Shown here one piece after another: positions 45,085-62,531 of a stretch of 64,000 nucleotides of DNA. Origin of the DNA: Alphaproteobacteria bacterium (GTDB taxonomy: Bacteria; Pseudomonadota; Alphaproteobacteria; Thalassobaculales; Thalassobaculaceae); assembly GCA_013203465.1 (NCBI GenBank), contig JABMNR010000045.1, positions 1 through 64,000 on the forward strand, written 5' to 3'. Within the stretch, counting starts at the first letter, position 1, and each line of letters starts with the position of its first letter. The position numbers and the translations under genes were made by a program. A model generated the notes under the pieces. The model was not told the origin of the DNA. It searched no databases and saw only the letters and a program-made list of their open reading frames with translations.

Positions 45085-45366
45085 CTACACGTAGCGGAAA
45101 ACCAGAAATCCCCAGACCAAGGCGATCGCCAGCGGTCCCCAGAGCAGAGTGCTGACCAGCCCCATCCAGGCCAGGAAGATGAACGCGCTGCCCAACAGCG
45201 AAATGAACAACCGGTCGCCGCGCGTGGTGTCGATGCCAAAGACGCCGTGGCGCGGGTCACCGCCCGGCACCTTCAACTCCCACACCGTCAGGGTGATCAG
45301 GCACGCCGCGACAAACACGAAGAATGCCGCCGTCGGCCACGTCCAGGCCATCCAACTGAGACCCAT
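45085..45366 (-). CDS. DUF2160 small membrane protein of glycerol transporter operon
   Basis: 93 residues with two strong membrane segments (about 10-30 and 55-90). DUF2160 proteins are found in the operon of the GlpSTPQV-type glycerol ABC transporter, as here after glpQ. WELKVPGGDPRHGVFGIDTTRGDRLF between the helices is the conserved loop. It is probably an accessory membrane subunit; no biochemical function is established. It follows glpQ by 21 bases. Confidence 0.82.
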   Translation of the reverse strand: MGLSWMAWTWPTAAFFVFVAACLITLTVWELKVPGGDPRHGVFGIDTTRGDRLFISLLGSAFIFLAWMGLVSTLLWGPLAIALVWGFLVFRYV

Positions 45367-45387
45367 GATCGGATCCTCCCGTCCTGC

Positions 45388-46188
45388 TCACACCCGTCCG
45401 AGGGCGAAGCCCTTGGCGATGTAGTTGCGCACGAAATAGATGACGAAGGCGCCGGGAATGATGGTCAGCGTCCCGGCCGCCGCCAGTAACCCCAGCTCAT
45501 AGCCCGAGGTACTCGCCGTTCGGGTCATGATCGCCGCGATCGGTTTGGCCTCGACCGCCGTCAACGTCTTGGCCAGCAGCAACTCGACCCAGGAAAACAT
45601 AAAGCAGAAGAACGCCGCCACCCCGATGCCGGCGGCCACCGTCGGTATGAAAATCTTGAGGAAAAAGCTCCAGAACGAGTGACCATCGACATAGGCGGTC
45701 TCGTCCAACTCCTTCGGCACGCCGGACATGAAACCTTCCAGGATCCACACCGCCAAGGGGATGTTGAACAACGTGTGCGCCAGTGCCACCGCGATGTGGG
45801 TGTCGAACAGATTGACCGCCGAATAGAGCTGGAAAAACGGCAGGGCGAACACCGCCGGCGGCGCCATGCGGTTGGTCAGCAACCAGAAGAACAGATGCTT
45901 GTCGCCGATGAAGCGGTAGCGCGAGAACGCGTAGGCCGCCGGCAACGCCACCGACACCGACAGGATGGTGTTGAGCGACACATAGGCGAGCGAGTTCACG
46001 TAGCCCATGTACCAGGTCGGATCGGTGAAGATCGTCACATAGTTGGCAATGGTGAACTCTTGCGGGAACACGCTGAAGCCGCCGAGGATCTCGTTGGTGG
46101 TTTTGAACGACATGCTCACCAGCCAATAGATCGGCAACATCAGAAAAATGATGTAGATCGTCGGAACGATCCAGCCCGTGCGTCTCAT
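45388..46188 (-). CDS. glpQ: Glycerol ABC transporter permease
   Basis: 266 residues with six membrane segments and the binding-protein-dependent transport fold. The EAA loop is recognisable as ELDETAYVDGHSFWSFFLKIFIP (about 153-175), which docks to the ATPases. It forms the channel with GlpP. It lies 13 bases after glpP in the order V-S-T-P-Q-DUF2160, which is the known layout of the rhizobial glycerol importer. The symbol follows that system and not the E. coli phosphodiesterase of the same name. Confidence 0.9.
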   Translation of the reverse strand: MRRTGWIVPTIYIIFLMLPIYWLVSMSFKTTNEILGGFSVFPQEFTIANYVTIFTDPTWYMGYVNSLAYVSLNTILSVSVALPAAYAFSRYRFIGDKHLFFWLLTNRMAPPAVFALPFFQLYSAVNLFDTHIAVALAHTLFNIPLAVWILEGFMSGVPKELDETAYVDGHSFWSFFLKIFIPTVAAGIGVAAFFCFMFSWVELLLAKTLTAVEAKPIAAIMTRTASTSGYELGLLAAAGTLTIIPGAFVIYFVRNYIAKGFALGRV

Positions 46189-46201
46189 GGGAACGCTCTC
46201 C

Positions 46202-47065
<864 letters not shown>

Positions 47066-47075
47066 GGTTCCATCC

Positions 47076-48149
47076 TCACGCGACCACACGGCCGTCGGCG
47101 TAGAGCCGGGTCCGCTCGACATCGAACGCCAGATGCGTGGCATCGGTGGGGATTTCGGTTCCTTCCGGCACCAGGAGCCGGATCGGCGACGCCACGTCAT
47201 TGGGCCGCGTCTCGACGATCCGGAACCGGCCGGCGTCGCTCACCTTGGTCACCGTCACCGGAAAGCCATCCTCGGCGAACCGCACGAATTCGGGTCGCAC
47301 CCCGACCTCCAGCGTGTCGCCGCCGCCGCTGTAGCGGGCGGCGTTGGCGGTCGGAACGTCGTGGTCGAAACAGACCGCGACCCCCGCGCGCACGGTGCAG
47401 GGCAGCAGGTTCATGCCCGGCGAGCCGATGAAATGACCGACGAAGGTGTGCTGCGGGGCTTCGAACAACTCCACCGGCGTGCCGATCTGCACCACCTCGC
47501 CCTGGTTCATCACCACCACCCGATCGGCGAAGGTCAGCGCCTCGGTCTGGTCATGGGTCACGTAGATCATGGTGGTGCGGACTCGCTGGTGCAGCTCCTT
47601 CAGTTTGGACCGCAACTGCCACTTCAGATGCGGGTCGATGACGGTCAGCGGCTCGTCGAACATGATCACGTTCACGTCCGACCGCACCAAGCCGCGGCCC
47701 AGTGAAATCTTCTGCTTGCCGTCGGCGGTCAGCCCGGACGCTCGTTTGTCGAGCCGGTCGGTCAGGTCGATCATCTCGGCGATCTCGCGCACCCGGCGGT
47801 CGACGTCCGCGGCGGCCACGCCCCGGTTGCGCAACGGGAAGGCCAAATTGTCGTACACCGTCATGGTGTCGTAGACGACCGGGAACTGGAACACCTGGGC
47901 GATGTGACGCTCGTCCGGCGGCAGCGCCGTCACGTCGGCGTCGTCGAACAGAATCCTCCCATGGCTCGGCCGCAGCAGGCCCGAGATGATGTTCAGCAGC
48001 GTGGTCTTGCCGCAGCCCGACGGGCCAAGCAGCGCGTACGCCCCACCGTCGTCGAAGGTAACGTCCAGCTGCTGCAGCGCCCAGTCCTCGGGTGCCTTTG
48101 GCTCGGCCATGTAGCTGTGGCGCAGGTCGTCGATCGTGATCTTGGCCAT
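47076..48149 (-). CDS. glpT: Glycerol ABC transporter ATPase with degenerate signature
   Basis: 357 residues. Walker A GPSGCGKT (42-49), Q-loop QFP near 88, Walker B VIMFDEP (161-167) and the H-loop His199 in YVTHDQ are intact. The C-loop, normally LSGGQ, reads LTADGKQK (140-147), so this subunit does not supply a normal signature to the partner. A regulatory OB-like C-terminal domain follows from about 240. ATG 48149 lies two bases after glpS. It works as a heterodimer with GlpS. The symbol refers to the glycerol importer, not the G3P antiporter. Confidence 0.9.
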   Translation of the reverse strand: MAKITIDDLRHSYMAEPKAPEDWALQQLDVTFDDGGAYALLGPSGCGKTTLLNIISGLLRPSHGRILFDDADVTALPPDERHIAQVFQFPVVYDTMTVYDNLAFPLRNRGVAAADVDRRVREIAEMIDLTDRLDKRASGLTADGKQKISLGRGLVRSDVNVIMFDEPLTVIDPHLKWQLRSKLKELHQRVRTTMIYVTHDQTEALTFADRVVVMNQGEVVQIGTPVELFEAPQHTFVGHFIGSPGMNLLPCTVRAGVAVCFDHDVPTANAARYSGGGDTLEVGVRPEFVRFAEDGFPVTVTKVSDAGRFRIVETRPNDVASPIRLLVPEGTEIPTDATHLAFDVERTRLYADGRVVA

Positions 48150-48151
48150 CG

Positions 48152-49258
48152 CTAGGCCCTCGCGCTGGGATCTGGTGCGTCTTGGTCGGATGCACTGGCA
48201 AGCAGTCGGCCGTCGGTCGCGAAATACATCGCCCGCGCCATATCGGCGTACAGCCGGGCATCGGCACCGACCTCGAATGGGTGAATGCCGTGCGCCTGCG
48301 ATACCCAGGTGGTCTCGCCCATGACGAAATGCACGATACTTTCGGAACCGCTCAACTCGGTCACCAGGACCCGGCCGTCGACCGCCACCGGGCGTTGGCC
48401 GCGTTGCATCGGCGTGACGAAATGCGGGCGGATGCCGACGGTGTAGTCCGCGTCCGGCAACTCCTTGAGAGCGCCGGTCGCCTCCCACCGCGTGGTCGCG
48501 TCAAGCACGAACGCGCCGTCCCGCTTGTGAACGCGGGCGGTGTTGATCGGCGGGTCGGAAAACACCTGGGCGGTGATCAGGTCGCGCGGTTGACGGTAGA
48601 GTTCGCTGGTCGGCCCGAACTGGGTCACCGCGCCCTCGAACAGCGTGGCGGTTCGACCGCCGAACAACAGGGCCTCCATCGGTTCCGTCGTGGCGTAGAC
48701 CACGATGCACTCGCGGTTGGCGAACAGACGCGGCAGCTCGTCGCGCAGCTCCTCGCGCAGCTTGAAGTCGAGATTGGCCAGCGGTTCGTCGAGCAGCACC
48801 AGATCGGCGTCCTTGACCAGGGCGCGCGCCATGGCGGTGCGCTGCTGCTGGCCGCCCGACAGCTCGGCCGGCCCTCGATCCAACATCGGCGTCAGCCTCA
48901 ACAGTTCGGCCATGGTGTGAACCCGCCGACGGATTTCGTCTTCGGCCATTCTCGCCACCCGTAACGGCGAGGCGATGTTCTCGAAGACGCTCATATTCGG
49001 GTAGTTGATGAACTGTTGGTAGACCATCGAGACGTTACGCTTCTGCACGGAAACTTTGGTCACCAGCCTGTTGTCGAACCACACCTCGCCCGAGGTCGGC
49101 CTGTCGAGCCCGGCCATCAGCTGCATCAAGGTGGTCTTGCCGGCGAGGGTCGTGCCGAGAAGGATGTTGAAGCTGCCCGGCTCCAGGCGCAGATCGGTCG
49201 GATGAATGTGCATCGCGATGCCGACGCGTTTCGCCACGTTCTTGAGTACCAGGGTCAT
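48152..49258 (-). CDS. glpS: Glycerol ABC transporter ATPase lacking the H-loop histidine
   Basis: 368 residues. Walker A is GTTLAGKT (35-42), signature LSGGQQQR (133-140) and Walker B LVLLDEP (153-159) are present. The H-loop reads VVYATTEP, with Thr191 where His is expected. Its own nucleotide site is therefore likely weak, but it offers a good signature to GlpT. A C-terminal regulatory domain is present from about 240. The gene follows a GC-rich hairpin 50 bases upstream and is the first of the membrane/ATPase genes after glpV. Confidence 0.9.
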   Translation of the reverse strand: MTLVLKNVAKRVGIAMHIHPTDLRLEPGSFNILLGTTLAGKTTLMQLMAGLDRPTSGEVWFDNRLVTKVSVQKRNVSMVYQQFINYPNMSVFENIASPLRVARMAEDEIRRRVHTMAELLRLTPMLDRGPAELSGGQQQRTAMARALVKDADLVLLDEPLANLDFKLREELRDELPRLFANRECIVVYATTEPMEALLFGGRTATLFEGAVTQFGPTSELYRQPRDLITAQVFSDPPINTARVHKRDGAFVLDATTRWEATGALKELPDADYTVGIRPHFVTPMQRGQRPVAVDGRVLVTELSGSESIVHFVMGETTWVSQAHGIHPFEVGADARLYADMARAMYFATDGRLLASASDQDAPDPSARA

Positions 49259-49308
49259 GGCGTCGTTCCCAACCGCCTTACGGAGCGCATCGTAGCGAAA
49301 GAATGGGT

Positions 49309-49340
49309 GCCGGGGCACGCACCATGGCGCGTGCCCCGGC
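49309..49340. terminator. 12-bp perfect stem-loop between glpV and glpS
   Basis: GCCGGGGCACGC (49309-49320) pairs fully with GCGTGCCCCGGC (49329-49340) around an eight-base loop. Without a T-run it is best read as a partial terminator or 3' shield, allowing more binding protein than transporter. The same arrangement is seen after the TRAP binding protein gene. Confidence 0.65.
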
Positions 49341-49363
49341 GGATCAGGTCGGAAAGAGCCGGA

Positions 49364-51097
<1,734 letters not shown>

Positions 51098-51128
51098 TCG
51101 TTTACCTCCCTGCTAAAACAGCGTGGCG

Positions 51129-51157
51129 ATCATCAAACGAAAAAAAACGAAGGTCAA
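51129..51157 (-). promoter_or_regulatory. Candidate glpV promoter with operator repeats in the spacer
   Basis: Read leftward, TTGACC (51152-51157) is a good -35 and GATGAT (51129-51134) a fair -10, 17 bases apart. The spacer consists of two AAACGAA units (51135-51141 and 51145-51151, plus strand) spaced by exactly ten bases with A's between. A third AAACGAA is at 51238-51244. This matches how DeoR-type repressors such as GlpR block promoters, but binding is inferred. Confidence 0.5.
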
Positions 51158-51219
51158 GCCGTCATTTTCATTGCCAAATTGCACCAAATTCGAAACATTA
51201 TGGGATTGTTCGCATAATT

Positions 51220-51263
51220 TCTCGCACATGTGAAAAGAAACGAAACTTTTCGCATATGCGAAA
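51220..51263. promoter_or_regulatory. Candidate GlpR palindromic operators upstream of glpR
   Basis: TTTCGCATATGCGAAA (51248-51263) is a perfect 16-bp palindrome 18 bases before the glpR ATG. TCTCGCACATGTGAAA (51220-51235) matches it at 13 of 16 positions, with centres 28 bp apart. A half site, TTCGCAT, lies at 51209-51215. TTCG/CGAA arms are like those of known GlpR sites. Autoregulation is likely. Confidence 0.55.
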
Positions 51264-51281
51264 GGCGCGAGAGGAACCGTG

Positions 51282-52085
51282 ATGGAACCGGCATCGCCGA
51301 GGCAGTCGGACATCCTGCGCATGGCGTGGGAGCTTGGACGTGTTGGCGTGGACGATCTCGCCGGGCATTTCGAAGTCACGCCACAAACCATTCGCAAGGA
51401 TTTGAACGATCTGTGCGACGGCGGTCCGTTGCAGCGCGTCCATGGCGGCGCGATCTATCCATCGGGCGCCAGCAACTACGCCTATGAGGCGCGGCGGCGT
51501 CTGGCGGCCGACGGCAAACGCCGGATCGGTGAACGAACGGCCCGTCTGATCCCCGACAACTCCTCGATCATGCTGAACATCGGCACCACCACCGAGCAGG
51601 TGGCGATAGCGTTGGGCCGGCATGACGGCATCATGGTAGTCACCAACAACATCAACGTGGCCAACATCCTGCGCGGGTCACCGACGGCCGAGGTAATCAT
51701 CGCCGGCGGGTTGGTGCGCCCCTCGGACGGCGGCATCGTCGGCGAGGCGACCGTCGACTTCATCCGCCAATTCAAGGTCGACTATGCCGTTATCGGCGCC
51801 TCGGCGATTGACGAAGAGGGCACGGTTCTGGACTACGACCTCCGTGAGGTGCGGGTTGCCCAGGAAATCATGCGCCACGCCCGACACACCATCCTGGTCA
51901 GCGACCGCATGAAGTTCGAGCGTAACGCCCCGGTACGGATCGCCCATCTGTCGGAGATCGACGTTTTCGTGACCGACGCCGAACCGCCGGAGCCGGTGAT
52001 GAATATCTGCCGTCAGAACGATGTCGTGGTCGAGATCGCCGAGGACGAGGCCACCGTGGAACGTGATGCGGAGCGGGTGGCGTGA
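51282..52085 (+). CDS. glpR: DeoR-family glycerol regulon repressor
   Basis: 267 residues. N-terminal HTH in VDDLAGHFEVTPQTIRKDLNDL (about 23-44), then the DeoR sensor domain with RIGERTARLIPDNSSIMLNIGTTTEQVA, GGLVRPSDGGIVGEATVDFI and a late SDRMKFERNAPV. The sensor should bind glycerol-3-phosphate. ATG 51282 has GAGAGGAA at good distance; the GTG one codon earlier is also possible. The stop overlaps the GTG of glpD, and operator-like palindromes lie just upstream, so it probably controls both arms. Confidence 0.92.
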   Translation: MEPASPRQSDILRMAWELGRVGVDDLAGHFEVTPQTIRKDLNDLCDGGPLQRVHGGAIYPSGASNYAYEARRRLAADGKRRIGERTARLIPDNSSIMLNIGTTTEQVAIALGRHDGIMVVTNNINVANILRGSPTAEVIIAGGLVRPSDGGIVGEATVDFIRQFKVDYAVIGASAIDEEGTVLDYDLREVRVAQEIMRHARHTILVSDRMKFERNAPVRIAHLSEIDVFVTDAEPPEPVMNICRQNDVVVEIAEDEATVERDAERVA

Positions 52086-53620
52086 CCGAGACGCACCAGA
52101 CGGTCGACATTTTCGTCATCGGCGGCGGCGTCAATGGCTGCGGCATTGCCCGCGATGCCATCGGCCGCGGGTATTCGGTCTTCCTTGCCGAAATGAACGA
52201 CCTGGCCAGCGGCACATCATCCTGGTCGACCAAGTTGATCCACGGCGGGCTGCGCTATCTGGAGCATTACGAGTTCCGGCTGGTGCGCGAGGCGTTGATG
52301 GAGCGCGAGGTGCTGTGGGCCATGGCACCGCACATCATCCGCCCGCTGCGCTTCGTGCTGCCGCATCACAAGGGCCTGCGCCCGGCGTGGTTCCTGCGCC
52401 TGGGGTTGTTCCTCTACGACCACCTGGGCGGGCGTAAGAAACTGCCGGCGACGGCCACACTCGACATGCGGACCGATCCGGCCGGGAAACCCCTGAAGCC
52501 ACTGTTCACCAAGGCCTTCGAGTATTCCGACTGCTGGGTCGACGATGCGCGGCTGGTGGTGCTGAACGCCCGTGACGCCGCCGATCGGGGGGCGGTGATC
52601 CGCACCCGCGCCAAGGTGACGGCGGCCGAGCGCACGGACACTGGCTGGCGGGTGACCGTTCAGAATCTGAGCGACGGCACCACGACCACGGTCGCGGCGC
52701 GTGTCCTGGTCAACGCCGCCGGCCCCTGGGTCGACCGGGTGTTGAACGAGGCCACCGGACGCAACGACGCGCGCAACGTGCGTCTGGTGCAAGGCAGCCA
52801 CATCGTCGTGCCCGAACTGTTCGAGCACGGCCGCAGCTACATCTTTCAGAACGCCGATGGCCGGATCATCTTCGCGATCCCCTACGAAGGGGATTTCACG
52901 CTGATCGGCACCACCGACCAGGATTATACCGGCGACCCGAAGGATGTGGCGATCACGCCGGCGGAGATCGCCTATCTCTGCGCGGCGGCCAGCGAGTATT
53001 TCGCGGCACCGGTCACCCCGGACGACGTTGTCTGGACTTATTCCGGGGTACGCCCGCTGTTCGACGACGGCGCCTCCCAGGCCCAGGAAGCGACCCGCGA
53101 CTATGTCCTGCGCGACGAGGCGGTCGGCAGCGGCGGTCTGATCAACATCTTCGGCGGCAAGCTCACCACCTACCGCAAGTTGGCCGAGGCGGTGCTGGAA
53201 AAGATCGAGGCCCGGCTGGGTACGCGCGGGCCGCGCTGGACCCATACCGGCGCTCTGCCGGGTGGCGATTTCCCGGTCGATGGCGTCGAGGCGCTGATGG
53301 CCGACATCCGATCCGCCTATCCGTTCCTCGAAGAAGCGCTGATCGAGCGCCTGACCCGGCTCTACGGCACCCGCAGCCGGGACGTGCTGGGCGAGGCTAC
53401 GTCGCTCGCCGATCTCGGCCGCTGTTTCGGTGCCGACCTGTACGTGGTGGAAATCCGCTATCTGATGACCCAAGAATGGGCGATCGAAGCGGTGGATGTG
53501 TTGTGGCGGCGGACCAAGCTTGGCTTGCGTCTGTCGGAGGCGGAGGTTCGCGCGCTGGAGGAATTCATGGCGTCGACCCCGCTGCGCGGCCCGGTACGCG
53601 ATGACCAAGCCGCCGAGTAA
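52082..53620 (+). CDS. glpD: Aerobic glycerol-3-phosphate dehydrogenase
   Basis: 512 residues, membrane-peripheral flavoprotein that oxidises glycerol-3-phosphate to dihydroxyacetone phosphate and passes electrons to quinone. FAD motif [13 protein letters not shown] (14-26), then [19 protein letters not shown] with the substrate and flavin contacts, NAAGPWVD in the middle and [19 protein letters not shown] and TRLYGTR toward the end. GTG 52082 overlaps the glpR stop (GTGA). A 15-bp tandem duplication lies between it and glpK. Confidence 0.95.
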
Positions 53621-53624
53621 ATAC

Positions 53625-53654
53625 GGTCAGCAGCCAGAAGGTCAGCAGCCAGAA
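53625..53654. repeat. 15-bp tandem duplication between glpD and glpK
   Basis: GGTCAGCAGCCAGAA occurs twice without a gap (53625-53639 and 53640-53654) in the 55-base glpD-glpK gap. It ends 21 bases before the glpK ATG and does not touch the ribosome site GGGGGAG. Confidence 0.9.
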
Positions 53655-53675
53655 CAAGATCCAACAGGGGGAGAC

Positions 53676-55172
<1,497 letters not shown>

Positions 55173-56445: not shown

Positions 56446-57099
56446 TTACGCTCCCGAATGATCGTCTGGAACCACCGCGCTGGCGAACGCACGGAACGCC
56501 GCCGCTTCCTCGGTGGTCGGCTCAACTCCGGTGAAACCGCGCACATAGGCCTCGACATAGGAGAGCCGTGTCTCCATCGGCTCACCCAGGTCGAGCGCGT
56601 AGTAGCCGATCTGCATGAAGTACAGGATCCGCGCCCGCACGAAGGCATCGGTCGCCTCGTAGCCATGGCGCGCGAACATTCTCCGGATCGCCTCGACCCG
56701 CGCCGCATCGGCGTCATCCAAGACCCGTCGCACCGCCTCGGATCGCCGCGCCCATTCCCGAACCGCGAAGTCGAGACGCGGGTCGAACACCGCGTCGTCG
56801 GTCCAGCACTCGAAGACATGCAGCACCGCCTGGACGATCGAGTCCGCCGGCCGAGCGGCACGCTCAACGATCGCCGCCGTGTTGGTGTCGAGCCAGCGCC
56901 ACAGCATCTGATCCAACAGATCCTGCCGGCTCTTGAAGTACCAGTAGAAGCTGGACCGCGAGACATCCAGGGTGCGAGCCAGATCCTGAATCTTCACCCG
57001 CTCGACCCCTTCGTCGATCAGGACAGCCAGCGCGGCGTTCAGCCAATCCTCATGGCTGACCTTGGTCTGTGGGTAGCGGCTGACGGTGGTCTCGGTCAT
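56446..57099 (-). CDS. TetR-family transcriptional regulator
   Basis: 217 residues. N-terminal HTH (about 17-65) contains IQDLARTLDVSRSSFYWYFKSRQDLLD; the C-terminal helices form the ligand pocket, unlike any family I could name. ATG 57099 is preferred to a frame start at 57171, which would cover the dyad GACACAAGTGTC at 57127. It diverges from the flavoprotein/MttB operon across about 100 bases and is its likely local repressor. Ligand may be the amine substrate or a product. Confidence 0.87.
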   Translation of the reverse strand: MTETTVSRYPQTKVSHEDWLNAALAVLIDEGVERVKIQDLARTLDVSRSSFYWYFKSRQDLLDQMLWRWLDTNTAAIVERAARPADSIVQAVLHVFECWTDDAVFDPRLDFAVREWARRSEAVRRVLDDADAARVEAIRRMFARHGYEATDAFVRARILYFMQIGYYALDLGEPMETRLSYVEAYVRGFTGVEPTTEEAAAFRAFASAVVPDDHSGA

Positions 57100-57126
57100 G
57101 TCGTACCCTGCCCTGCCGATAGTTTG

Positions 57127-57138
57127 GACACAAGTGTC
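57127..57138. promoter_or_regulatory. Candidate TetR operator
   Basis: GACACAAGTGTC has inverted arms GACAC and GTGTC separated by two bases. It stands 28 bases upstream of the TetR ATG and 64 before the divergent flavoprotein ATG, in position to control both. The site is short, so confidence is limited. Confidence 0.4.
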
Positions 57139-57201
57139 TAGACTCACGTTTCCCGGTGCCCTAGCGTTCACGCCTCGACGCTTGACTGGGGAGGACGGGC
57201 C

Positions 57202-59622
57202 ATGAAATCACAATACCGGGCGGTGGTGATCGGCGGTGGCGTCGTCGGCGCCAGCGTGCTGTATCACCTGGCGAAATTCGGCTGGAGCGATGTGGCGCTG
57301 ATCGAGCGGGCGGAGTTGACCGCCGGTTCGACCTGGCATGCCGCCGCTGGCTTCCACCCGTTGAACGCCGATCCCAACATCGCCGCCCTGCAGTCCTACA
57401 CCATCAAGCTGTACCGCGAGATCCAGGAGGAAAGCGGTCAGGATGTCGGCCTGCACATGACCGGCGGCGTCAACATCGCCTCGGCGCCCGAGCGCTGGGA
57501 GTGGTTGCAATCGGCCTGGGCGACGTTCCAGACCATGGGGATCGAAACCGCGCGCTTGGTCGGCCCGGACGAGATCAAGGAAATGGTACCGATCGCCGAC
57601 GTGACCGGCGTGCTCGGTGGATTGTACGACGCCAACGAGGGGCATCTGGACCCCTACGGCACCACCCACGCCTATGCCGGCGCCGCCAAGAAGCGCGGCG
57701 CCGAGGTCATCCTGCGCAACCGGGTGATCGAACTGAACCCGCGCGCCGAGGGCGGCTGGAACGTGGTGACCGAGCACGGCACCATCATCGCCGAGCACGT
57801 GGTCAACGCCGGCGGGCTATGGGCCAAGCAGGTCGGCAAGATGGTCGGCGTCGATCTGCCGGTCACGCCGATGGAGCACCACTATCTGGTGACCGAGGAC
57901 ATTCCCGAGCTGGCGGCGTTGGACCGCGAACTCACCCTGATGGCCGATCTGGAGGGCTTCACCTACTCACGGCAGGAACACAACAGCCTGATGCTCGGGG
58001 TCTACGAGCTGACGCCGAAGCATTGGAACATGGAGGGCGCGCCCTGGGATTACGGCATGGACCTGATCCCCGAGGACATCGACCGCATCTCGCCTGAGTT
58101 GGCCAAGGGGTTCGAGCGGTTCCCGTGCCTGAACGATGTCGGCATCAAACGTTGGGTCAACGGTGCCTTCACCTTCGCGCCGGACGGCAACCCCCTGGTC
58201 GGCCCGATGCCGGGGGTGCCGAACTACTGGCTGGCCTGCGGCGTGATGGCCGGGTTCAGCCAGGGCGGCGGCGTCGGCAAGTCGCTGGCCGAATGGATGA
58301 TCCACGGCGAGCCCGAGGAGGACGTGTTCGGTATGGACATCGCCCGGTTCGGGCCGTTCGCCTCGAACCGCGAGTACCTGCGCCAGACCACCGGCCAGTT
58401 CTATTCCCGCCGCTTCGTCATGGCCTACCCGAACGAACAGTTGCCCGCCGGCCGGCCGTTCAAGGTCTCGCCGAGCCACGATGCGATGGCCGCCAACGGC
58501 GCCCGGTTCGGTGTCAACTGGGGGCTGGAGGTGCCGATCTACTTCGCCCCCTCGCCCGCGTTCGAGGAGAAATGGACCCTCAAGCGCTCGAACGCCTTCG
58601 ACATCATCGCTGGCGAGTGCCGCGCCGCGCGCGAGCATGTCGGCCTGCTCGATACCTCGGGTTACTCGCGCTACAGCATCACCGGGCCGGGAGCCGCGCA
58701 ATGGCTCGATCGCATGTTGGCGTGCAAACTGCCGCCGCCGGGCCGGGCGCGGTTGGCGCCTATGCTGTCGCCCAACGGCAGGCTGAAGGGTGACCTCACC
58801 GTCTTCAACTGGGATGGTGAGACCTTCTGGCTGATGGGGTCCTACTATCTGCGCCAGTGGCACATGCGCTGGTTCCAGGATCACGCGGTGGATGGTGTGA
58901 CCGTGCGTGACGTCTCCGACGACTGGACCGGCTGGCTGGTCTCCGGCCCGAAGGCGCGCCAGGTAATGGAACGGGTGGTGCACAACGCCTCGATGGCGCA
59001 CGAGGATTTCCGTTTCCTGGCGTGCCGCGATCTCGACGTCGGCCTAAGCCGGGCCAAGGTTGGCCGGCTGTCGGTGTGGGGTGAGTTGGGTTACGAGATC
59101 AACGTGCCCGCCGCCGAGCATCGCGTGCTGTACGACACGCTGAAGGCCGCCGGGACCGAGTTGGGCATGGCCGATGTCGGCATGAACGCCTCGGGCTCGC
59201 TGCGGCTGGAGAAAAGCTTCGGCGTCTGGTCCTTGGAATTCCGGCAGAACTATACCCCGGGCATGACCTTGATGGACCGCTGGATCGCCTTCGACAAGGG
59301 CGACTTCATCGGCCGCGACGCCGCCCTGCGAGAGCGCGACGGCGACACCGCGCCACGCAAGCTGGCGACCCTGGAGATCGACTCCGACGACGCCGACACC
59401 GCCGGGTTCGAGCCTATTTGGGATGGGGATACCCGCGTCGGGTTCGTCACCTCGGGCGCCTATGGCCACTGCGTCGGCAAGAGCATCGCCATGGCGATGA
59501 TCGACAAGGAACGCATCGCCGAGGGCGCGGCCTTCGACGTCCATGTGGTCGGGGTGAAGAAGAAGGCTCGCATCATCGCCGACAGCCCGATGAACCCGAG
59601 CGGATCGCGCATGCGGGCCTGA
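57202..59622 (+). CDS. Dimethylglycine/sarcosine dehydrogenase-like flavoprotein with GcvT domain
   Basis: 806 residues, the length of bacterial DMGDH-type enzymes. The N-terminal half is a DAO-type FAD domain with VIGGGVVGASVLYHL (9-23). H46 in AGSTWHAAAG is placed like the His that holds FAD covalently in DMGDH. From about residue 425 a GcvT-like folate domain follows: GLLDTSGYSRYSITGPGA, LTVFNWDG, LGYEINVP, RLEKSFGVWSLEF and a C-terminal barrel. It should oxidise an N-methyl group and hand the C1 unit to tetrahydrofolate. First gene of a three-gene operon behind the TetR dyad. Confidence 0.86.
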   Translation: MKSQYRAVVIGGGVVGASVLYHLAKFGWSDVALIERAELTAGSTWHAAAGFHPLNADPNIAALQSYTIKLYREIQEESGQDVGLHMTGGVNIASAPERWEWLQSAWATFQTMGIETARLVGPDEIKEMVPIADVTGVLGGLYDANEGHLDPYGTTHAYAGAAKKRGAEVILRNRVIELNPRAEGGWNVVTEHGTIIAEHVVNAGGLWAKQVGKMVGVDLPVTPMEHHYLVTEDIPELAALDRELTLMADLEGFTYSRQEHNSLMLGVYELTPKHWNMEGAPWDYGMDLIPEDIDRISPELAKGFERFPCLNDVGIKRWVNGAFTFAPDGNPLVGPMPGVPNYWLACGVMAGFSQGGGVGKSLAEWMIHGEPEEDVFGMDIARFGPFASNREYLRQTTGQFYSRRFVMAYPNEQLPAGRPFKVSPSHDAMAANGARFGVNWGLEVPIYFAPSPAFEEKWTLKRSNAFDIIAGECRAAREHVGLLDTSGYSRYSITGPGAAQWLDRMLACKLPPPGRARLAPMLSPNGRLKGDLTVFNWDGETFWLMGSYYLRQWHMRWFQDHAVDGVTVRDVSDDWTGWLVSGPKARQVMERVVHNASMAHEDFRFLACRDLDVGLSRAKVGRLSVWGELGYEINVPAAEHRVLYDTLKAAGTELGMADVGMNASGSLRLEKSFGVWSLEFRQNYTPGMTLMDRWIAFDKGDFIGRDAALRERDGDTAPRKLATLEIDSDDADTAGFEPIWDGDTRVGFVTSGAYGHCVGKSIAMAMIDKERIAEGAAFDVHVVGVKKKARIIADSPMNPSGSRMRA

Positions 59623-59651
59623 CCCGTGACCTCTAGAAGAAGGACTGCGCC

Positions 59652-61199
59652 ATGGCGGATCGTGAGAGGCGAAGCGGGCGGCGTGGCCGGCGCTCCGCCG
59701 CCGAGACGGCACCCGCACCCACCCGGTCGATCGCCTATCGCCGCCTGATCAATCCGCTGATCCGGCAACCGGCGTTCAGTGACGACCGGGTCGAGGCGAT
59801 CCACCAGACCGCGTTGCGGGTCCTGGAAGAACTTGGCATCAAGGTGCTGAACGGACAGGCGCGCGACCGTTTCAAGAAGGCGGGCGCGGATGTCGACGGC
59901 GACAGCTGGATGGTGCGTCTCGACCGTGGCCTGGTGGAAGAGGCGATCCGTACCGCCCCCGGACAGTTCGACCTGATCGCCGGATCGGCGGAGCGCCGGG
60001 TCACCCTGGGCGGCGACCATGTGGCCTTCATGGGCGTCGGCGGACCGCCGCACATCTCCGACCTCGACCACGGCAAGCGGCCCGGCACGCTGGAAGACAC
60101 CCGCAACCTGATCAAGCTCACCCAGAGCTTCGACGTGGTGCATCTGCTGTCACCGAACGTCGAGCCCCAGGACATCCCCATCGAGATCCGCCACCTCGAC
60201 ATGACCTATGCCGAAATGACGTTGAGCGACAAGGCGCCGTTCGTCTACGCCCGCGGTCCCGGACAGGTGCGCGACTGTTTCGCGATGATCCGCCTCGCCC
60301 GCGGCGTCGACGAAGACACGTTCGCCGCCCGGCCCTATTGCTACACCGTCATCAACACCAACTCGCCACGCCAGCTCGACATCCCGATGTGCCAAGGGAT
60401 CATGGATTTCGCCGACGCCGGGCAAATCTCACTGATCACCCCGTTCACCCTGTCGGGCGCGATGGCGCCGGTGACCATCGCGGGCGCCTTGACCCTGGCC
60501 CATGCCGAAGCGCTGGCCGGGATCACCCTGGCGCAGGTCAGCCGGCCCGGCGCGCCGGTGCTGTACGGCTCGTTCACCTCCAACGTCGACATGAAATCCG
60601 GCTCCCCGGCCTTCGGCACGCCGGAGTTCATCAAGGGCGCGTTCGGCGCCGGGCAGTTGGCGCGGCATATCGACGTGCCGTGGCGCGGCTCGGTCGGCAC
60701 CGCCTCGAACGCGCCGGACGAGCAGGCGGTCTACGAGACGTTGATGTCGATGTGGGGCAACATGCTCGGCGGCGCCCACGTCCATCTCCACGCCGCCGGT
60801 TGGCTTGAGGGCGGGCTGACCGCGTCGATGGAGAAATTCGTCCTCGACGTCGAGATGTTGCAAATTCTGGCCGAGATGCTGCAACCGCTGGACGCCAGCG
60901 ACGCCGCGATCGGCTATGACGCCATCGCCGAGGTCGAGCCCGGCGGGCACTTCTTCGCCGCCGCCCACACCATGGAGCGCTACCAGACCGCGTTCTACCA
61001 GCCGCTGGTATCGGACTGGCGCAACTTCGGGCAATGGAGCGAGGATGGCGCGACGTGGTCGTCGACCCGGGCCAACCGGATCTGGAAGGAAACCCTGGCG
61101 AATTTCACGCCGCCGCCGCTCGATCCCGGTATCGTCGAGGCGTTGGACGAGTTCGTCATCCGGCGCAAGGCCGAGGGCGGCGAGCCACCGGTGTCGTAA
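59652..61199 (+). CDS. Non-pyrrolysine MttB-family methyltransferase homologue
   Basis: 515 residues of the trimethylamine:corrinoid methyltransferase superfamily (COG5598). After an Arg-rich tail, the barrel shows IHQTALRVLEELGIKV, FMGVGGPPHISD, TPFTLSGAMAPVTIAGAL and YGSFTSNVDMKSGSPAFGTPE. No in-frame TAG interrupts it, so pyrrolysine is absent. Relatives of this non-Pyl type in anaerobes demethylate quaternary amines such as glycine betaine, passing the methyl to a corrinoid protein. No corrinoid protein is encoded here. It sits 29 bases after the DMGDH-like gene and 24 before a DAO-type gene. Substrate and acceptor are unknown. Confidence 0.84.
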   Translation: MADRERRSGRRGRRSAAETAPAPTRSIAYRRLINPLIRQPAFSDDRVEAIHQTALRVLEELGIKVLNGQARDRFKKAGADVDGDSWMVRLDRGLVEEAIRTAPGQFDLIAGSAERRVTLGGDHVAFMGVGGPPHISDLDHGKRPGTLEDTRNLIKLTQSFDVVHLLSPNVEPQDIPIEIRHLDMTYAEMTLSDKAPFVYARGPGQVRDCFAMIRLARGVDEDTFAARPYCYTVINTNSPRQLDIPMCQGIMDFADAGQISLITPFTLSGAMAPVTIAGALTLAHAEALAGITLAQVSRPGAPVLYGSFTSNVDMKSGSPAFGTPEFIKGAFGAGQLARHIDVPWRGSVGTASNAPDEQAVYETLMSMWGNMLGGAHVHLHAAGWLEGGLTASMEKFVLDVEMLQILAEMLQPLDASDAAIGYDAIAEVEPGGHFFAAAHTMERYQTAFYQPLVSDWRNFGQWSEDGATWSSTRANRIWKETLANFTPPPLDPGIVEALDEFVIRRKAEGGEPPVS

Positions 61200-61223
61200 G
61201 TCGTTGAAAAGGAGAAGAGCGCG

Positions 61224-62531
61224 ATGACCAGAACCGCGGACGCGATCATTATCGGCGCCGGGGTGATCGGCGCCGCCGTTGCCTTCGAGTTGGCCAAGAA
61301 GGGTTGGAAGACGCTCTCGGTCGACCGCAACGCCCAGGCCGGTCACGGCTCGACCAGCGGCTCCTGCGCCATCATCCGCATGCACTACTCGACCTTCGAC
61401 GGCACCGCCTTCGCCTGGGAGGGCTACCACTACTGGCGCGACTGGGCCGACTACCTGGAGACCCGCGACCCCAGCGGCCTCGCCACCTTCCGCGAGACCG
61501 GGTGCTTGGTCATGAAGACCGAGGGCAATGAGTATCTGTCGAAGCATATGGAGAACTCCAAGGCGCTGGATTGTCCGTTCGAGGAATGGACGTCCGCGAC
61601 CATCACCGAACGCCTGCCCGGCTACGACACCCAGTTGTTCCACCCACCCAAGACATCGGACGATCCCGGCTTTGGCGCGCCGACCGGCGGCACCCTGCGC
61701 GGTGGGGTATTCTGGCCCAACGCCGGCTACGTCACCGACCCGGCGCTGTCGGCGCAGAACCTGGCCCACGCCGCCAAGGCCAAGGGCGCCGAATTCCTCC
61801 ATGGCGCCACCGTCAGCGATATTCTCACAGCGGGCAGCCGAACCAAGGGCGTGCGGCTGGCCGGCGGCGAGGAGTTGCATGCGCCGGTGGTGATCAACGT
61901 CGCCGGTCCGGCCTCGTCCCGGATCAACGCGATGGCCGGGGTGACCGGCGACATGATCATCACCACCCGCGCCCTGCGCCAGGAGGTGGTGCACGTTCCC
62001 GCCCCCGAGGGCCTGGATTTCGACAACCACGGCATCGTGCTGTCGGACAGCGACATCGCCGTGTACTGCCGGCCGGAGCACGGCAACAACATTCTGATCG
62101 GCAGCGAGGATCCGCCCTGCGACGATCACGTCTGGGTCGACGACGACACCGGTTACAACCGCGACTTCACCGAACAATGGCGCACCCAGGCCCTGCGCTA
62201 CGCCCAACGTCTGCCGACCCTCGGCATCCCCAGCCGCATGAAGGGGGTGGTCGATCTGTACGACGTGACCGAGGACTGGATTCCGATCTACGACCGCTCC
62301 AGCCTCGACGGCTTCTACATGGCCTGCGGCACCAGCGGCAATCAGTTCAAGAACGCGCCGATCGCGGCCAAGATGATGGCGGCCCTGGTGGAGGCGTGCG
62401 AGGCCGGTCACGACCACGACGCCGAGCCGCTGCGCTTCACCCTGCCGTATCTCGGCCGCGCGGTGAACGTCGGGTTCTACTCGCGCAAACGCTCGATCAA
62501 CCAGGAGAGCAGTTTCTCGGTGCTGGGGTAG
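61224..62531 (+). CDS. Sarcosine-oxidase-beta-like FAD-dependent oxidoreductase
   Basis: 435 residues of the DAO family. IIGAGVIGAAVAFELAKKG (9-27) binds FAD. The GSTSGSCAIIRMHYS segment (42-56) resembles the beginning of heterotetrameric sarcosine oxidase beta chains. NVAGPASSRIN and a C-terminal YMACGTSGNQFKNAP complete the fold. It likely oxidises a secondary N-methyl amine such as sarcosine, with electrons to oxygen or ETF. GAAAAGGAGAAG precedes the ATG. Last gene of the operon; no alpha, gamma or delta sarcosine oxidase subunit follows. Confidence 0.86.
   Translation: MTRTADAIIIGAGVIGAAVAFELAKKGWKTLSVDRNAQAGHGSTSGSCAIIRMHYSTFDGTAFAWEGYHYWRDWADYLETRDPSGLATFRETGCLVMKTEGNEYLSKHMENSKALDCPFEEWTSATITERLPGYDTQLFHPPKTSDDPGFGAPTGGTLRGGVFWPNAGYVTDPALSAQNLAHAAKAKGAEFLHGATVSDILTAGSRTKGVRLAGGEELHAPVVINVAGPASSRINAMAGVTGDMIITTRALRQEVVHVPAPEGLDFDNHGIVLSDSDIAVYCRPEHGNNILIGSEDPPCDDHVWVDDDTGYNRDFTEQWRTQALRYAQRLPTLGIPSRMKGVVDLYDVTEDWIPIYDRSSLDGFYMACGTSGNQFKNAPIAAKMMAALVEACEAGHDHDAEPLRFTLPYLGRAVNVGFYSRKRSINQESSFSVLG

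Follow-up and report, generated by a model that had tools for sequence, protein, structure and literature searches.

How would an operon built around an MttB-family methyltransferase, with no corrinoid protein gene within it, strip methyl groups from its substrate, and which methylated amine would that substrate be? The question is raised by a locus near the end of a 64,000-nucleotide stretch of contig JABMNR010000045.1 (assembly GCA_013203465.1, Thalassobaculaceae, Alphaproteobacteria), called the window throughout, in which the gene of a TetR-family regulator lies divergent from a plus-strand operon of three enzymes: a dimethylglycine dehydrogenase (DMGDH)-type flavoprotein, an MttB-superfamily protein and a DAO-family oxidase. 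An earlier note, made from the letters and their open reading frames, had read these genes as a TetR-controlled aerobic route from betaine through dimethylglycine and sarcosine to glycine, or the same on another quaternary amine, and had remarked that the corrinoid protein normally needed for the first step is missing here. The genes proved real and correctly placed, with gaps of 29 bases between the DMGDH-type and MttB genes and 24 bases between the MttB and oxidase genes. The operon can be read, with a probability of about 0.6, as serving the stepwise aerobic demethylation of a trimethylated amino-acid betaine via a shared corrinoid hub encoded elsewhere in the genome.

That the genes form a unit is seen from gene calls on 80 loci homologous to the operon: a DMGDH gene stands directly upstream of MttB in 41 and a TetR gene adjoins or lies near MttB in 45, an arrangement far beyond chance, while the oxidase of the window type is present in 16, and the DMGDH–MttB–TetR–oxidase cassette is kept across Rhodobacterales and relatives. 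In these relatives the TetR gene is frequently set so close to its neighbours that the ends overlap or almost meet (-4 to +4 bases), so that co-transcription is probable there.

The window's DMGDH start is preceded, 77 bases before it, by a palindrome, TGGACA-N4-TGTCTAGAC. Its relaxed form, TGGACA-N4-TGTCNA, is found upstream of the DMGDH gene with at most two mismatches at all 32 loci with an adjacent TetR gene and with at most one at 31 of them, against 0.13% of shuffled upstream regions; the motif was derived from the window site and then adjusted on the same loci, which are related, and so these are not 32 independent tests. It mostly sits 60–107 bases before the DMGDH start and occurs at two of nine loci without an adjacent TetR gene, and its extended 19-base version has one exact match in the own genome and only operon-linked matches in three other genomes. 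The regulator combines a TetR_N domain with a palindromic operator near the promoter, its binding there being predicted, and the TetR control proposed at the outset is well supported by the conservation of this putative operator. The predicted operator, at 57125–57143, makes a longer form of the regulator starting from a GTG at 57171 less likely. A second operator-like site with one mismatch is seen on another contig of the same genome (G000:C110:3721-3739), and a further set of TetR–MttB pairs, from other branches (L016, L017, L018, L033, L036 and L045), has a different palindrome upstream of TetR, approximately CCATACA-N4-TGTATGG, which has the ACA-N4-TGT core in common with the window site.

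The two flavoproteins point to the later demethylation steps. The DMGDH-type protein can be aligned over its whole length with human DMGDH (5l46; 517 bits, residues 3–796), combines DAO, FAO_M, GCV_T and GCV_T_C domains and carries a WHAA motif whose histidine, which we take to be the flavin-linking residue of DMGDH, is conserved among the orthologs; it has the make-up of a dimethylglycine dehydrogenase, a function that stands as a prediction, and no NCBIfam equivalog reached its cut-off. None of the three operon enzymes received a specific name from NCBIfam. The oxidase falls below every named cut-off there, scoring 56.5 bits against the 479.65 required by TIGR01377 (monomeric sarcosine oxidase), and Asp344 stands at the position of Cys315, which in the monomeric enzyme presumably links the flavin, so that it does not classify as a monomeric sarcosine oxidase. 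Its orthologs, 53–79% identical in the cassettes of Ruegeria and others, have Arg52, Tyr55 and Lys376 invariant (Arg52 and Lys376 among 15 orthologs), and Arg52 and Lys376 are the equivalents of Arg52 and Lys348 of monomeric sarcosine oxidase, which we take to bind the carboxylate. The structure model of the oxidase is poor (pLDDT 54).

Canonical SoxB takes the position after TetR in three relatives (L065, L073 and L090), with SoxD- and SoxA-like genes next to it in L073, and is divergent just upstream of the DMGDH gene in two others (L069 and L078). Each of the five exceeds the cut-off of TIGR01373, and no window-type oxidase was found in these five stretches, some of which stop close to the operon. 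Canonical SoxB at cassettes where the window-type oxidase was not found argues for a secondary N-methyl amino acid as the substrate of the last step. The tertiary and secondary steps of the sequential aerobic N-demethylation first proposed are thus backed by the DMGDH similarity and by SoxB in or beside the relatives' cassettes. The own genome holds two more SoxBDAG-like sets (L177 and L178, on contigs C202 and C98), that on C98 near a carnitine-dehydrogenase-like gene.

The MttB protein itself matches PF06253 over profile positions 3–500 of 500, its 664 bits standing against a curated cut-off of 25, and so belongs to the MttB superfamily (PF06253, COG5598). As the frame runs without an internal stop, it is not a pyrrolysine enzyme, and its 304 bits against TIGR02369, the pyrrolysine-dependent trimethylamine methyltransferase family, fall short of the cut-off of 525. 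The predicted fold superposes on 4yyc, 9yce and 2qne with TM-scores of 0.91–0.92.

The harder question is whether this protein takes glycine betaine itself, the operon then being a second, self-contained betaine–dimethylglycine–sarcosine–glycine route and its MttB an MtgB isoenzyme. We regard this as unlikely, while allowing it real weight: the downstream enzymes resemble DMGDH, canonical SoxB stands in or beside cassettes where no monomeric oxidase was found, and two loci (L029 and L031) group a window-clade MttB with DMGDH, a homocysteine-methyltransferase-like gene and an MttB of the Tyr94 type. Set against this is the tree, a quick search of 131 MttB proteins collected by using the window protein as bait, in which the window MttB belongs to a clade apart, comprising 112 rows (SH-aLRT 100, branch 0.74), with the Desulfitobacterium hafniense MtgB (DhMtgB), the Sinorhizobium meliloti protein of 4yyc and a paralog of the own genome on contig C223 all outside it; the protein does not group with the characterised MtgB. 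The glycine betaine contacts of DhMtgB predicted by docking are Y94, N199, R309, H345 and F353 (PMC6855144). At these positions the window MttB has G/N/R/H/G, so that three of the five expected residues (Tyr94, Asn199, Arg309, His345 and Phe or Tyr353) are kept, in favour of glycine betaine, and Tyr94 and Phe353 are lost, against it; the C223 paralog has Y/N/R/H/G.

A further line comes from the aerobic MtgBCD system, a glycine betaine methyltransferase and split methionine synthase described in 2025 in Ruegeria pomeroyi and Phaeobacter, where SPO2108 and SPO2134 are the only PF06253 proteins named as raised during growth with betaine, choline or carnitine as osmolyte (PMC12478193). In a genome taken from its gene content to be R. 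pomeroyi DSS-3 (G102), the positions of two PF06253 genes, 2.244 and 2.268 Mb, agree with these two proteins in the spacing to mtgC (SPO2160, 2.298 Mb). The C223 paralog is 63% identical to the inferred SPO2108, and the paralog on contig C182 is 42% identical to the inferred SPO2134. At 0.56 Mb, flanked by genes fitting SPO0560 and SPO0568 (annotation in PMC4809877), is the window-type operon, which is thereby placed at about SPO0564–0567, with its MttB at about SPO0565; a limited literature search found nothing on SPO0564–0567 as such. Since only SPO2108 and SPO2134 are named as raised, this operon is probably for another betaine. The clade position and the R. pomeroyi ortholog together make glycine betaine doubtful as the start of the originally proposed route, of which the stepwise demethylation stands. 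Judged from these comparisons, the C223 paralog is likely the glycine betaine enzyme (MtgB) of its genome, where the two further SoxBDAG-like sets also weigh against a second betaine route; the window MttB, whose substrate is probably not glycine betaine, would then probably take a related betaine.

Several points tell against a trimethylated amino-acid betaine as the substrate of the operon, or against parts of that reading. The absence of SPO0565 (so numbered by position) from the raised proteins could be non-detection, the Tyr94 argument depends on docking, and the tree was a quick one with rows baited by the window protein; SoxBDAG beside the relatives' cassettes would be just as compatible with glycine betaine itself; and near the cassette of a close relative (L134) no TetR gene was called. 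With these in view it can be proposed tentatively that the window MttB represents a widespread aerobic subfamily whose substrate, a trimethylated amino acid of greater size than glycine betaine, would be new for MttB proteins, working in a three-step cassette on a shared hub. A trimethylated amino acid fits better than proline betaine because two flavoprotein steps follow MttB and proline betaine has only two N-methyls.

Proline betaine by way of a PutA neighbour in Ruegeria was rejected, as the start sequence of the 1137-aa neighbour resembles indolepyruvate ferredoxin oxidoreductase; SPO0568 is listed as a 2-oxoacid ferredoxin oxidoreductase (PMC4809877). A homarine route was set aside, as nothing observed ties the window operon to homarine. 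Other MttB genes offer leads to other substrates: four (L091, L022, L026 and L149) stand beside genes for mandelate-racemase-type enolase-like proteins, the class to which hydroxyproline betaine epimerase belongs, L091 also having MtgC-, DUF1638-, RamA- and SoxBDAG-like genes, and a Ruegeria paralog (L148:3910-10987), which may belong to another betaine route, has a TetR gene and two old-yellow-enzyme-like genes as neighbours.

MttB might alternatively be no first step at all and instead draw on an unrelated methyl donor to supply methyl-tetrahydrofolate or methionine, the flavoproteins being co-regulated with it for general use of N-methyl amino acids. Members of the clade accompanied by TetR only, without both flavoproteins (L015–L018 and L033), are in keeping with this, as is the part that MtgC and MtgD also play in methionine synthesis (PMC12478193). 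Against such a separation stand the close coupling of DMGDH and MttB genes in many genera, where the two frequently overlap at their ends, and the shared operator upstream of DMGDH; they make this account improbable.

The absence of a corrinoid protein holds for the operon itself, where no such gene is found, and does not hold for the genome (4.48 Mb, 238 contigs), which has four PF06253 genes, the window MttB and three paralogs. A whole-genome search for MttC/MtbC-like corrinoid proteins and RamA finds one of each, a stand-alone MtgC and a RACo-type activase, both on contig C19. The cluster there (L008:8253-14664) runs MtgC, DUF1638, PF13769, a thioesterase on the opposite strand, MTHFR, a pterin-binding methyltransferase and RACo; the pterin-binding methyltransferase, MtgD, matches PRK07535 with 373 bits against a cut-off of 259, and MtgC is 84% identical to that of a Ruegeria genome. 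MtgC, MtgD and RamA are thus present together, as in an aerobic MtgBCD-type system. A 352-aa protein without a Pfam match (L008:7073-8128) is encoded between a radical-SAM gene and mtgC.

Across 98 genomes, with MtgC counted as present at 75% identity or more, 33 have both MttB and MtgC, 4 MttB only, 1 MtgC only and 60 neither (p=1.6e-20). When each family other than the own one is represented by a single genome, the same four counts are 11, 1, 0 and 50 (p=2.4e-11). Of the four genomes with MttB only, three are drafts of 73–84% completeness, and the fourth is in 810 contigs with MttB fragments only. MtgC never occurs more than once per genome among the 98, and MttB matches range up to 15, the case of a 2.8-Mb genome (G069) with a single MtgC. 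These patterns suggest that the window MttB depends functionally on MtgC and that one corrinoid hub would serve several MttB paralogs. Direct methyl transfer by a corrinoid-free MttB to folate or another acceptor, for which the lack of a corrinoid gene in the operon might be cited, is so improbable that it was rejected, given MtgC and RamA in the genome, the co-occurrence of MtgC with MttB, and a predicted fold shared with MtgB and MttB, which depend on a corrinoid.

Gene order, protein families, conservation, the hub in the genome and the operator motif are seen in the sequences themselves; the substrate, a trimethylated amino-acid betaine, and the chemistry of its demethylation we infer as follows. 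MttB would take one methyl off the quaternary amine and place it on the cob(I)alamin of the C19-encoded MtgC, from which MtgD would pass it to tetrahydrofolate; MTHFR would oxidise the methyl group on the folate, and RamA with DUF1638 would re-reduce the cobalamin. The DMGDH-type flavoprotein, by its architecture, would then oxidise the tertiary amine and hand the C1 unit to folate, and the DAO oxidase would take off the last N-methyl. TetR would repress the operon by binding the predicted operator.

It took until 2025 for aerobic corrinoid-dependent glycine betaine demethylation to be resolved genetically, and many marine and soil bacteria have several MttB paralogs without an assigned substrate. 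The operon in the window stands for a large, well-bounded clade of such paralogs that comes with a regulator, an operator and downstream enzymes of its own; the point of interest is the substrate of this clade. With an ortholog set in the tractable R. pomeroyi DSS-3, the substrate question is directly testable there.

Table 1. Genes and predicted operator of the demethylation operon, in window coordinates.
Feature	Position	Strand	Remarks
TetR-family regulator	56446..57099	minus	217 aa from ATG 57099; PF00440 57.7 bits
Predicted TetR operator TGGACACAAGTGTCTAGAC	57125..57143	plus	motif conserved upstream of DMGDH genes
DMGDH-type flavoprotein fused to GcvT folate domain	57202..59622	plus	806 aa; Pfam DAO + FAO_M + GCV_T + GCV_T_C
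Non-pyrrolysine MttB-superfamily methyltransferase	59652..61199	plus	515 aa; PF06253 664 bits
DAO-family N-methyl amino acid oxidase or dehydrogenase	61224..62531	plus	435 aa; PF01266 171 bits

Elsewhere in the window (45085–55172) lies an apparent glycerol uptake and catabolism cluster with an ABC transporter, a DeoR-like regulator, a glpD-like gene and glpK, of which the family search confirmed glpK only.

Set beside known systems, the individual enzymes show both kinship and departure. The window MttB shares with D. hafniense MtgB (2qne, 9yce) the fold (TM about 0.91), the non-pyrrolysine type and Asn199, Arg309 and His345, whereas it is 36% identical to that protein, has Gly in place of Tyr94 and Phe353, and D. 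hafniense is an anaerobic host. The DMGDH-type protein parallels mammalian DMGDH (5l46, 4pab) in its full-length alignment, domains and flavin-linking histidine motif, differing in being bacterial and operon-encoded. The oxidase is of the DAO family like monomeric sarcosine oxidase (TIGR01377; 1zov) and keeps the equivalents of the carboxylate-binding Arg52 and Lys348, but it lies far below the cut-off and has Asp344 in place of Cys315.

A parallel might also be struck with Eubacterium limosum, in which the MttB paralogs MtpB, MtcB and MtyB share one corrinoid protein (PMC8604678, PMC12478193): here too, many paralogs with different substrates go with a single corrinoid protein, although E. 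limosum is an anaerobic gut acetogen for which the link to flavoprotein demethylation is not described. Closest are R. pomeroyi and Phaeobacter, with the same methyltransferase family, the hub of MtgC, MtgD, RamA and DUF1638, an aerobic alphaproteobacterial host, later demethylation genes nearby and several PF06253 paralogs per genome. By its sequence, the system is thus of the aerobic MtgBCD type already known for glycine betaine, and what sets it apart is a paralog clade of its own and a dedicated operon: the window MttB is not an ortholog of MtgB1 (SPO2108, by position) or MtgB2 (SPO2134), falls in another clade without Tyr94, and, unlike these, is encoded in its own operon with a dedicated DMGDH, oxidase and TetR.

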